A DNA stretch of 64,000 nt, taken from positions 91,311,435-91,375,434 of the forward strand of contig NC_058338.1 of assembly GCF_905475395.1 (NCBI RefSeq). The letters are read 5' to 3'. Shown here piece after piece: positions 3,201 to 9,200 of this stretch. Source of the DNA: Chrysoperla carnea. Its lineage: Eukaryota; Arthropoda; Insecta; Neuroptera; Chrysopidae. Numbering within the stretch: the first letter of the stretch is position 1; each line of letters opens with the position of its first letter. The position numbers and the translations under genes were made by a program. The notes below the pieces were generated by a model. It saw only the letters and a program-made list of their open reading frames with translations, had not been told where the DNA came from and ran no database searches.

Positions 3201-6200
3201 TTAGTCTACTTTAACAACGTTCTGAAAATGTACTATCAAAAACTTACCCTTTAAAAAGGCGATCTCTAAAAAATTCTTATTCCCTTAAAATCTCTAAAAA
3301 GGCGAAATTTTTAAGATTTTTTCGATTTTTGACAAAGTTGAAAAAATTGAAACAATCGGATTTAACGCAAACTATCCCGTTTTTTTCAGGTGACAAGTTT
3401 ACTGGATTAATAGCCATCCATACATTTATACTTTTTCAATTTGGAATTACCATTTGGTTATGTATCAATTATCAAATAACCAATTGGTAATTCCAAATTA
3501 ACTGCAAACATCAGGCAGGCCCGTACGCAGGAAACTCCCTAGTGGAAGGGGGGGGGTCTTAAACTTTTGTTCATCATTTTAGGTCATAAATTTGATATTC
3601 GGTCACTAATTCTGCGAGGTTCAGAACAAAATTGCTTCAAACCTCTGTGCGCATCACCCTGTAGACCGCGATGTTTATTGTGCGAGATTAAACCGTTCAG
3701 ATATTGTCGATGTAAGGTAGGTTTTGAGACGACGCATAGTTGAAAAAGATCGTTGATTCATCACTCTTCTCAAAGGCAAATGTGGGTAATCGCGAAGCAT
3801 TTGAAAGACATTTGGATACGCATCTTCATTGCAAATATCGAGTGGTTCGAGTGAATTTTTGACGTCCGGTCCAACAATGCGTTTTCGACAAAGTTTAACT
3901 TTGTCGACCCAGATGTCACGAGAATCGTCATCCAAAACTGAAGAATATGGTTCAAAAAATTGAACTCAAAGGTTGATCTCCCCCCCCCCCTTCCTCTGTG
4001 TGCACGGGTCTGGATTGCGTAATTAATTGCAAAAAAAAAAAAGTTTTGAAAAATAATTATTTTATACGACAAATATAGATGTTAGATTAGAAATGTGACC
4101 ATTATGAACACCTTTTTCTGTCCAATACCCCAACTACGGTACTTTGTTCTATATAATAAATTTTAATAAATTTTCTATACTTTTTTTTTCCTCACTAGTG
4201 GTTTTTCAGCGCACCGAACTCAATCTCAGGAAGATATTTATAACGACTTACGTACTATGTAAGTAAATTTTTTTAACATGTTTTTTACGAAAGTGACTAG
4301 TGTGCTTGGATTACTTTTATATTTGAAATTCCTGCATTGCACTGAATTTATACCGAATGTATTCCAGTGACGAAAAAATGTTTCAAGCAAAAAAGTGTTA
4401 GTTTTTTTACATGGAACAACTTTCTAATTTAAAGTGTTTTTCTATCTCTGACCAGTTAAGAAACTGGTGTGATTTTAAAAAAATCCAATCCAGGAAAAAA
4501 AAACTCGTATTCAAAACCTGGAAAAAATTCGAAATTTTTAATAGTTCTGGATTTTTTCGAGTTTTTTACATTTTTGTTTGGTAATGTTTCGGCTCATAAT
4601 CAGGTTTTGAAAAAAAATCTTTGTCATTATCCGAAAGTACACTCACTGTCAGAAAAAGTACCACAGTTAAAACATTCTAAGCGTACGCATCATATGTTAT
4701 GTTATAATAGTAACACTTAGAATGTTTTAAAACGAGCATTTTTTGTGACATTGAGTATACATAAAAAACCTGCAATTTAAAAAAAAAAAGTTAAAATCTG
4801 AGAATGTGCCTGAACTGTATGAGCTGTTGAAATTTTTCAGAAAAATTTGTTTTCTCAAAATTGGAGTAATGAATCGGCCTAAAATTTACTTTTTTATGAT
4901 CATAAGTTGCACCTTTTTCCAGAATTGCAACTCCATTTCTTCATTTTTCGAAAAGTTATCAGAGAAAGTTGAAAATGAGAGGTTACTGCGATTTTCTTGA
5001 GATTTTGACGTTATTTTGTTATGTTCAGGAATCGATGGCAAGCAAGGTCGATGTAGAAATTCATAACAAACAATTATTTTTTTATTCGTCTCAATCCGAT
5101 CAATGGAAGCAGAGGCATTCAAGAAAATATCACCAATGTAGAAATAAAAACCGCGTGCAGAAGGTTGTGCAGATCGTTTCGGAAGCGGAAAACTCTTTTT
5201 CAGTATTTTTTACAACGAAAACTTATTTAAAAAAATTAGCCATTTCCTAAAATTTACCAAATTTATCAAAATCCGGTAGATTTATCCAACTATTTTGAAT
5301 CTAACAACTTTTGCTTGTAACATTTTACCAATAAAACTTATTTTTCGAATTATTTGTGTCAATCTAAAAAAAATCAAGCTGTATTTGAGAGATATTGATG
5401 CAGTGACATCATAACACATAATTTTTTTAGAAATTTTTATAAATAAATTTTGACATTCCAGTATAAATGATTCAGTGCCAAATATTGTTGATTATGGTCA
5501 AATAGCAACGACTGGAAATGCTACTTGTAATGACCCAAGTTGGTTAAATTTTACAATAAAATGTCCTCCAATGATCCTTGAGGATCGTGATCAGGAAGTG
5601 TATGAAGATCTTTGCTATGTAACATTCTCGTCAACCCTTCCGGAGGTAGATGTTTGACCCCATTTGATACCAAATAATTTTTTTGTTTTTGTTTTATGAA
5701 AGTTTTTCCGCATGATTTGTGATTTCAGACGTATACGAAAAATAATCACATTTTTTATTAAGTGTTAGAAAGAGCTTCTGCCACAATTTTTTTTTATAGT
5801 TTATATATTATTTCGGATAGAAATAAATTTCGCTTTTAATTTTAAAGCTACTTTATTGATGTTTTTAAGTTTATTAGTGCTTATGAGTAAAAAATCGTTG
5901 CCTTAAATTAAAGATAGGAGTAGTTCATTGATATATTAGACAAGATAGATTAGACTCATAACTTAATTCGAAGTTACAAAATCGAAGGCGTTCAAGTATT
6001 ATGTCAGCCAAGTTAAGTGGTAGGGGAGGCAAAAGCCACGATTAAATATTTTATCTCATTAGGTAGAAGTTGCGTAGTAAATTTGAATAGTACTAAGTAA
6101 TTAATTGGAAAATAATAATGATATATAGTGAAGTCATATTAAGGTTTCACCTCGAAATAAGAGATAATAAGCTGTAAATTCGTATACTCCTTCATTTTGG

Positions 6201-9200
6201 TGTTCTAAAAGCTGTTTCAAAAGTCATATAAAATCTCGTCCTATGTTATTCAAGGTCAAAGCTCACAAAAATCAGTTTTTCGTGATTATCTCGATTTTTA
6301 TAACTCCAATGAAGTTAACATTTATTATGAAAATTGTAGAGCATAAAATTTACGACATATTTTGTTTTAAAAAAAGTTTATACGCCCAACCATTTTTGAG
6401 ATAGAGGGCAGAGAGAGATAAAAAAATACGTTTTATTTTTAATTATTTAAAAAACAAAAGTATTAGTTTTTTTCTATTCTTCATCGTCATCATTTTCGTT
6501 GTCCTGAATCGTTGTTTCCAGGCTTTCCAAAATTGCCGGGTTAAATGCACTCTCTTCCCCAGATTCGCTTTGTGATGAAACAGAATTGAGGTATTTTTGT
6601 CCATTACACTGGCCACAAGCTAAAGTGTATTTCAACCCCAATTTTCTGCACCCACAGTAATTCTTCAGGAGCTGGTGGTAATATTGTTGTTTTTGGTTCC
6701 AAGAGTTCATTTGCAGCAGCCAATCCCAATCCTGGAGATCCACGGTTGGGCTTATAAAAAATTTTTTTAACGAAATATGTCGCAAAATTTTTATAGTAAA
6801 TATTAACATCATTGGAGCTATAAAAACTGAAATAATCGCAAAAAACACATTTTTGTGATCTTTGACCCTTGAATAACTTACGGCCTTTTATGTGACACGA
6901 GATTTTATGTGACTTTTTGAAACAAATTTTAGAATACTAAAATGAAGGTGTATACAAGTTTACAGCTTTTATCTCTCATTCCCAGGTTGACGCCTAATTT
7001 TGGATTAAATGACTGCATCAATAGGTAGGGTTCATTCTAGATGATAGACCAAAATAGTACTATCGAAAAAAATATATGTTAGGAAATTTCAAACTAGAAC
7101 TATTTCCATTATTGCGCTTTATAGTTAAGAAGAAATTTTTGTAATGTAGCAAAATTTTTAGATATTTTATTTATCGTGGATTATTATATTTATTTCATTT
7201 GCATACCAAAATGGATTGTTATTTTATTAAATTATTTAAAGTTTTTTTAAAAAGTAACTGCTTTTTTTTATTTGATTTTAATTTAAAAAATGATTAAACG
7301 TTTTGCATGGCTTGTGATTTTGTTTGTAATAGTGGCAATACACAAGATCGAGACTTAATTGATGAACCATATGGCAGCTATTATTCACATATTAAAAACG
7401 AAGAAATTTATCAAGGTTTATGTTCAGTTTCTTATCGAAGTTCTAATACTACGTCACAGGTAAATACAAATCTATTTTTAAATTATTTAATGAACTTCTA
7501 ATTCACTTTGAATCGAGACAATGTCATTTAAATAAATCGAAAACTTTTGGTTAAATAAATTAATATTTTCTCCTTGCCAAAATTAGGATAGATTTAATTG
7601 TTTCCTTGATAGAAAAAATAATACATTCAGTTTAGAAAAAAAAACAATTCCTCAGGAAATGCAAAATTAATAATCTTTGAAGGTCCGTAACAGAATTGGG
7701 ATGAAAACTTGGTTAAGCCAAAGGGTAGGTTTTGGGATCTTATCTGAAAATCTCGATTTACGTCTATCATTTCGGCTACCGGATCACTGTAACGTGTAAC
7801 AAGCGGAAGTGATGGCTATTTACGAGGTATGTGAATGTATAAGATTGGACACTCTCAGCTACAAGGTATTACCATCTTCACCGACAGCCTTACTATATAA
7901 CCTCAAAGGTAGCACTGGACTGCTGTACGTACTTAAACGAGCTCTCAGAACAAATAAATGTAAAATTCTGTAAAATGCTGTCAGACTCAAGCATCAAAAG
8001 GCATCTTGGAGCGGGCATTCGCGAACTGCAAGCTGCTCCTTAAAGAGAGTATCTTAAAAAGGGCCAATCTTAGATGGAGGGATGAACGTACTTGTGATAC
8101 TACAAGATATATATAGTCTGAGTATAATCGTAGGCTTTACGAAGATCTGCTATCGCTTTCTATTAGCAAAGTTGTTGCAGCTGTTACAGGACACTGAATG
8201 GGCGGCAGGCATGCTGAACTCCTGGGCCTGACAGTATATCAGGACTATTACAGAAGCTGGCACAGTGGGGAGGGAGTTAATGTAAAGGAGTAAATGTTTT
8301 TTTTCGATTAAATCTTTCATTTAAAGATTCAAATGGCTTTGTGATGTTTAGTTAAATATTTTTTTAAATTTTAGCTTCTTAGATCTTATTTTAAAATTAG
8401 TTTTATTTAATGTGCTTCTAATATTGAAAAAAAAAATATTTCAACTTAATAAAAGAATATTTAATTGTTATGTAACATTTATTTTTTCAGTTTGGTCATA
8501 TAAATAGTCATAATTTAGAAAAGCGTGATTATGTAATTAAAGAATTAGTTGATACAGAAACTAATTATGTTGAAGTGTTGGGAAAATTACAAAAGCATTT
8601 CATGAAACCATTAAGCTCATGTTTACCAGCCAATGACGTTAAAATTATTTTTAAGGGTATTAAGGTAAGTGTTTTAACATTTTTATTAAGTGAAACTATG
8701 CATTTTTATAACCTACGATTTTTATTCCTTAACATTCCAAAACACTCATGAAAACTTCTAGCTCGACTCGTGCGGAATTCCGCAATGCGATACTCGAGGC
8801 TAAAAACATGCTAGAGAAATAATATATAAAAGTGATAATTTACTTTCTTTTTCAGGAATTATCAGAAATTCATTCAGGATTTTTAAGTCAGTTAAGAAAA
8901 GCATGTTACAGTGATAATAATTTAACAAGTGGTACAAATCAAGTTAGACTTAGCGAAGTGTTTATTAATTGGCGTGAAAAATTTTTAATTTATGGTGATT
9001 ATTGTGCAAATTTAACACGTGCTCAAAGTCAATTACAAGAATTATGTGATAGAAATGAACTTTTCAATCAGGAAGTCATTGTAAGTTCAGCTAAGTATAT
9101 CTTTTATCACAATCGCACTTAGTATTAAAATCAAAAGATACCGCTGTCCTATGCATTATGATTATTTTTTTGACAGTATTTGTCTGTACTATAGTGCCGG

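Follow-up and report, generated by a model that had tools for sequence, protein, structure and literature searches.

The window analysed here, a stretch of 64,000 nucleotides (nt) from contig NC_058338.1 of the lacewing Chrysoperla carnea, contains a vav gene in which two adjacent exons appear to compete for a single position in the transcript. The two exons, referred to here as 4a (5462..5645, + strand, 184 nt, 61 codons) and 4b (7333..7459, + strand, 127 nt, 42 codons), are a well-supported candidate for a mutually exclusive pair in the regulatory segment of the protein. It is likely, with a probability of about 0.75, that they are such a pair and that they give rise to two working protein forms. 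Exclusive use of the exons, their conservation and their function are presumed from the sequence.

The vav gene and the position of exons 4a and 4b

When exons bounded by AG and GT are joined, an uninterrupted Vav coding region is obtained on the + strand from 294 to 15324, with 13 coding exons per transcript. Exons 1 to 3 (294-515, 2506-2681 and 4199-4258), exons 5 to 8 (8491-8664, 8856-9080, 9284-9403 and 10828-11109) and exons 9 to 13 (11241-11443, 12421-12669, 12760-12891, 13456-13605 and 15090-15324), all on the + strand, are constant in both isoforms. The protein is 803 residues long with 4a and 784 residues long with 4b, a difference of 19 residues. A Pfam search of the 4b isoform found CH, RhoGEF, PH, C1, SH2 and SH3 in this order, and the lacewing protein thus has the CH-acidic-DH-PH-C1-SH2-SH3 order of the Vav family, together with Tyr142 and Tyr174-type motifs. 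No SH3 match was found between C1 and SH2 in the same search; the loss of an SH3 domain at this place has been described for arthropod Vav (PMC6562523). The domain order and a HMMER alignment to Vav1 chains from the PDB support the identity that the first-pass annotation had given to the gene.

Exon 3 (4199..4258) ends in phase 2, and exon 5 (8491..8664), in which the DH domain begins, starts in phase 0. Exons 4a and 4b lie next to each other between them, in the acidic region between the CH domain and the start of the DH domain, where the pair had originally been placed. They occupy one slot, each runs from phase 2 to phase 0, and each is bounded by AG and GT sites. Either exon alone gives an intact full-length Vav on reading of the frame. 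The inclusion of both produces WQYTRSRLN followed by TGA, a stop after nine codons, and the skipping of both produces ILVI and then a stop, after four codons. Joint inclusion and double skipping each break the Vav frame, and the frame-enforced choice proposed in the first-pass annotation is upheld, as are its exon coordinates, its phases, the TGA after nine codons and the early stop on double skipping. There is no AG between 7200 and 7420 that restores the frame of 4b behind the usual donor of 4a. From 5500 to 5760 there are four GT sites (5542, 5599, 5629 and 5701) with a phase that would permit joint inclusion; one of these is beyond stops and the other three would shorten 4a.

Coding signal and similarity of the two exons

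Coding potential was assessed with a codon score trained on the 12 constitutive exons. The controls, 706 open AG..GT segments, overlap one another and are drawn from the introns of vav, which also set the background. Exon 4b scores 0.146 bits per codon, higher than all 706 controls (maximum 0.095), and exon 4a scores 0.029 bits per codon, above the 99th percentile of the controls (-0.039). Both exons look like coding exons. Neither matched a Pfam family on its own at E values up to 1, and 4a with part of exon 5 had no match in NCBIfam.

The similarity between the exons is a core of 17 residues around the Tyr174 motif, with 6 identical residues and a C-x-V behind the motif in both. The local score of this core, 44, was equalled by none of 2000 residue shuffles. 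When the intron sequence (4259-5461 plus 5646-8490) was shuffled with its dinucleotides preserved, a phase-matched open candidate as good as the match between 4a and 4b was present in only 1 of 400 shuffled sets. Four of the six identical core residues are encoded by different codons in the two exons, as expected if the protein is under selection. A third copy of the exon was not found. Comparison with 4a covered 31 candidates in 4259-8490 that are open, phase-matched and bounded by AG and GT, and comparison with 4b covered 65; apart from 4a, 4b and their variants, no candidate exceeded a score of 22 in the former or 28 in the latter. An origin of the exons from mobile elements was rejected, neither 4a nor 4b having a blastn match elsewhere within the window. 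Scans for relatives in a collection of prokaryote contigs, queried with the CH domain to exon 3, and in a collection of viral contigs, queried with the end of 4a plus exon 5, gave none, which is unsurprising for a gene of an insect.

Several results in this part of the analysis tell against two related and functional exons. The codon test is coarse, with three of the constitutive exons themselves falling below zero (leave-one-out range -0.224 to 0.439). The global score of 4a against 4b is -6, which is -1.8% of the self score, and the first halves of the exons are unalignable. The WebScipio search for homologous mutually exclusive exons has as its defaults a score of at least 15% and a length difference of no more than 20 amino acids (PMC3228551). 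Exons 4a and 4b resemble that class in sharing a slot, a frame and a splice type, and their length difference of 19 amino acids is within the limit of 20, but their score of -1.8% is below the 15% default. As only the local core of 17 residues is similar, the exons are not placed in a homologous class of the WebScipio type. The homology that had been claimed for the two exons therefore stands for the core and fails for the exons as a whole.

This uneven similarity might also be generated without duplication, if one of the exons had been recruited from the intron and had converged on the Tyr174 motif. Such an origin would agree with the alignment of 17 residues beside first halves that do not align, and with flanking introns that share just short repeats typical of the whole region. 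It is unlikely, as the same short core with C-x-V behind the motif is found in both exons and as good a candidate arose in 1 of 400 shuffled intron sets. Recruitment would in any case alter the origin of the pair, not its use.

Regulatory tyrosines

The tyrosines were compared with the human Vav1 chains 3ky9 and 6nf1 of the PDB, using HMMER and an alignment under four gap settings. EDIYNDL of exon 3 aligns with EDIYSGL of Vav1, and the counterpart of Tyr142 is thus constant in both isoforms. Exon 4a encodes VDYGQI and EVYEDLCYVTF, the latter containing the Tyr174 counterpart and an extra tyrosine. HMMER aligns EVYEDLC with EIYEDLM of Vav1, and Tyr174 falls on the tyrosine of the 4a motif in all four gap settings. 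Exon 4b encodes DEPYGSYYSHI and EEIYQGLCSVSY, which contains the likely Tyr174 counterpart and again an extra tyrosine. The EEIYQGL of 4b is accepted here as the counterpart of Tyr174, a judgement based on the motif and on its similarity to 4a.

The alignments to Vav1 partly oppose these assignments. For 4b, HMMER puts Vav1 Tyr174 on a serine that is five residues past the tyrosine of EEIYQGLC, and under the four gap settings Tyr174 is on the motif tyrosine in two and on the serine five residues on in the other two. Vav1 Tyr160 is aligned with the YGQI tyrosine of 4a in just one of the four settings. It is on the 4b tyrosine chosen in the first-pass annotation in none of them, and on the second tyrosine of YY in three. 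Each exon had been thought to supply counterparts of both Tyr160 and Tyr174. For Tyr174 this holds in 4a and is motif-based in 4b, while the position of Tyr160, near which both exons have tyrosines, shifts with the gap setting in both. A different idea, in which the motif of the alternative exons was that of Tyr160 and not that of Tyr174, was given up in view of the HMMER alignment of 4a.

The spacing given for the two tyrosines in each exon, 36 residues in 4a (17 to 53) and 13 in 4b (19 to 32), is correct. Counted from the Tyr142 position, the tyrosines of Vav1 are at 0, 18 and 32, those of the 4b isoform at 0, 19, 22, 23, 32 and 40, and those of the 4a isoform at 0, 17, 53 and 58, later ones in each isoform belonging to the constant part. 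If YQGL is accepted as the Tyr174 counterpart, 4b would keep the Vav1 distance of 32, whereas 4a would depart from it at 53, with 21 additional residues. In the alignments with 3ky9 and 6nf1, a single stretch spans the acidic region for the 4b isoform and two stretches for the 4a isoform, which agrees with a Vav1-like distance in 4b and an insertion in 4a. Within 4b, the run YSHI-x5-YQGL is similar to an immunoreceptor tyrosine-based activation motif (ITAM), although its spacing is shorter by one residue than that of the ITAM consensus, and it might bind a tandem-SH2 kinase.

Splice sites

The donors of 4a (5646..5651, + strand, GTAGAT) and 4b (7460..7465, + strand, GTAAAT) both lack a G at position +5, which is present in all 11 constitutive donors (1 in 78, worked by hand). 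In a donor matrix trained on the constitutive donors with which it is compared, 4a scores 2.0, the lowest of the gene's donors and below all 11 constitutive ones (3.8 to 12.9), and 4b, at 7.5, is exceeded by 10 of the 11. The acceptors are unremarkable, at 7.8 bits for 4a and 3.6 bits for 4b within a range of -2.1 to 14.7. The case for weak alternative donors is mixed, the 4b donor being not clearly weak: its match to CAGGTAAGT covers 8 of 9 places and exceeds that of 7 of the 11 constitutive donors.

The low score of the 4a donor is also relevant to whether the gene has a single functional exon in this slot, with the other a rarely used or decaying copy that is open by chance. The donor score of 2.0 bits, a codon score for 4a that is modest at 0.029 bits per codon and the negative similarity of the whole exons would fit this explanation. 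Against it, both exons are open and phase-matched, the codon score of 4b is above all 706 controls and that of 4a above their 99th percentile, and the core residues are retained despite synonymous differences. A single functional exon is therefore considered quite improbable, and the two-form interpretation is retained.

RBFOX-type motifs next to 4a and 4b

Each alternative exon has an RBFOX-type motif in the intron between them. When 26 intronic flanks of the exons, each no longer than 150 nt, are compared, GCATG is found in exactly two, the flank downstream of 4a and the flank upstream of 4b, and in none of the other 24; on the + strand of the window it occurs 30 times. Only two of the 1024 pentamers, GCATG and GTTTG, occur in both of these flanks and in none of the other 24. 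The site after 4a (5710..5725, + strand) reads GCATGATTTGTGATTT, its core starting at intron position +65, and the site before 4b (7304..7320, + strand) reads TGCATGGCTTGTGATTT, its GCATG core, as TGCATG, starting 28 nt upstream of the exon. The composite GCATGNNTTGTGATTT is common to the two sites and is found nowhere else in the 64 kb. At 5710-5728 the composite directly adjoins GTGATTTCAG, which resembles an acceptor and might represent a cryptic splice site or what is left of a third copy.

As a rule, RBFOX sites located downstream of an exon promote its inclusion. RBFOX proteins bind UGCAUG, and mutually exclusive exons under their control at this motif are described in C. elegans, where egl-15 exon 5B is repressed from the upstream intron and a site in intron 7b favours unc-32 exon 7a (PMC3585155). 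The lacewing pair is similar in arrangement to egl-15 5A/5B and unc-32 7a/7b, with the difference that the motifs have been tested genetically in those genes, while the lacewing sites, downstream of 4a and upstream of 4b, are no more than sequence matches. The logic of egl-15, taken with the rule for downstream sites, suggests that an RBFOX protein would favour 4a. Such a toggle is putative and is proposed here tentatively, the odds being against it.

A number of considerations reduce the weight of these motifs. The RBFOX interpretation is post hoc, the motif having been noticed after the fact. As the composite was derived from the very copies it describes, its absence from 100 shuffles (0/100) is no fair test. 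Of 325 possible flank pairs, 12 have more exclusive pentamers than the 4a/4b pair and 20 have as many, that pair included. A match of 14 of 16 was reached by 10 of 600 random pairs of intron windows. The unc-32 motif favours 7a although the name of its intron, 7b, would place it downstream of exon 7b, and a simple position rule is therefore not always valid.

Intron pairing and the foldback element

The intron between 4a and 4b had also been suggested as a place to look for docking and selector sequences. Exclusion of one exon by competing RNA pairing of the Dscam type has been reported for beetle Dscam1 (PMC8042237), and the intron between 4a and 4b does have a long inverted repeat. This is a foldback element at 6149..6987, with arms of about 244 nt and 75% identity, and a related stretch of 116 nt is present at 9717-9832, in the intron before exon 8. 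After masking of this element, the suggested pairing was not seen in this one genome: the scores for three layouts were reached by 28, 16 and 37 of 40 shuffles, a result that is weak evidence of absence because no relatives were compared. The best single helices were reached by 32 of 40 shuffles for I1-I2, 3 of 40 for I2-I3 and 4 of 40 for I1-I3, the latter two being somewhat above the shuffles. Exclusion by RNA pairing is very unlikely here: the competing pairings are no better than shuffled sequence, and the inverted repeat is a foldback element to which a second sequence in vav is related. For the latter reason the element was also set aside as a regulatory hairpin.

Proposed mechanism and known systems

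In the two-form interpretation, splicing would pick one of 4a and 4b, and products with both exons or with neither would be cleared by nonsense-mediated decay. It is highly improbable that the pair serves mainly to tune the level of Vav through degraded early-stop mRNAs, with two equivalent proteins, as although joint inclusion and double skipping each give early stops, one frame-breaking exon would presumably suffice for this and two coding versions with different tyrosines would be unneeded. Since the alternative donors depart from the constitutive pattern, the choice between the exons may require regulators. A candidate is a protein of the RBFOX family, which might promote 4a from a site downstream of that exon and silence 4b from a site upstream of it. 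In each isoform the Tyr142 counterpart and the Tyr174-type motif would keep the DH domain closed as long as they are unphosphorylated; in Vav, phosphorylation of Tyr142, Tyr160 and Tyr174 leads to opening (PMC6562523, PMC6767298), and these tyrosines exist already in choanozoans (PMC6562523). With 4b keeping the Vav1 distance, 4a adding 21 residues and the accessory tyrosines differing, the isoforms would differ in how easily kinases open them and in their SH2 partners. The full scheme, in which one RBFOX-family protein toggles a Rho guanine nucleotide exchange factor (GEF) between a compact 4b form, spaced as in Vav1, and a 4a form that has a longer linker and other phosphotyrosines, is unlikely as a whole, and less probable than its RBFOX component.

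A comparable case is found in FYN. FYN is a kinase, and its exons 7a and 7b are located in the linker between the SH2 and kinase domains and affect autoinhibition. Like the lacewing exons they are tandem homologous exons that generate functionally distinct isoforms, FYNB and FYNT, of a protein of the tyrosine kinase pathways (PMC5224494). Lacewing Vav differs in being a Rho GEF, in that an autoinhibitory phosphotyrosine segment is swapped, and in the length change of 19 residues.

The first-pass annotation knew of no description of such a pair in Vav, and none was found among the matches listed in full-text literature searches, subscription journals and the NCBI annotation of this genome being outside their scope. 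Publications examined for pairing 'vav' with 'mutually exclusive' were unrelated: the match came from author names or from VAV1 as a sarcoma prognosis gene, or 'vav' was missing from the main text. The main text of a Vav review contains neither 'splic' nor 'isoform' and mentions no alternative acidic exon (PMC6562523). Likewise, 'vav' is not in the main text of a scan of the Drosophila X chromosome for such exons, the supplements being outside this statement (PMC3228551).

Other features of the window

Downstream of vav, on the - strand, there are at least three tandem genes for inosine-uridine preferring nucleoside hydrolases (40710-43443, 48736-49415 and 55741-58020). PF01156 was matched in one tested exon of each of the three copies, and visual inspection showed additional open frames resembling them. 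An open frame of 295 residues at 46977-47861 (+ strand) has no Pfam match and gives the impression of the end of a non-long terminal repeat (non-LTR) retrotransposon protein. A pure TA repeat of 100 nt (13258-13357) is located in the intron before exon 12 of vav. Rfam and tRNA scans of the whole window were empty.

Implications for Vav biology

Vav is a standard case of autoinhibition that is relieved by tyrosine phosphorylation. Mutually exclusive exons tend toward structured domains (PMC7954323), and the swapping of a linear regulatory segment would therefore be unusual. If the lacewing exons are used as proposed, the splice-swapped autoinhibitory segment would be a natural experiment on the relationship between tyrosine spacing and the lock. 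Sequenced invertebrates have a single Vav gene, with the exception of one choanoflagellate, and most vertebrates have three (PMC6562523). The exon pair would then represent a splicing route to the Vav diversity that vertebrates gained through gene duplication, and a single vav gene could provide tissue-specific thresholds for Rac activation.

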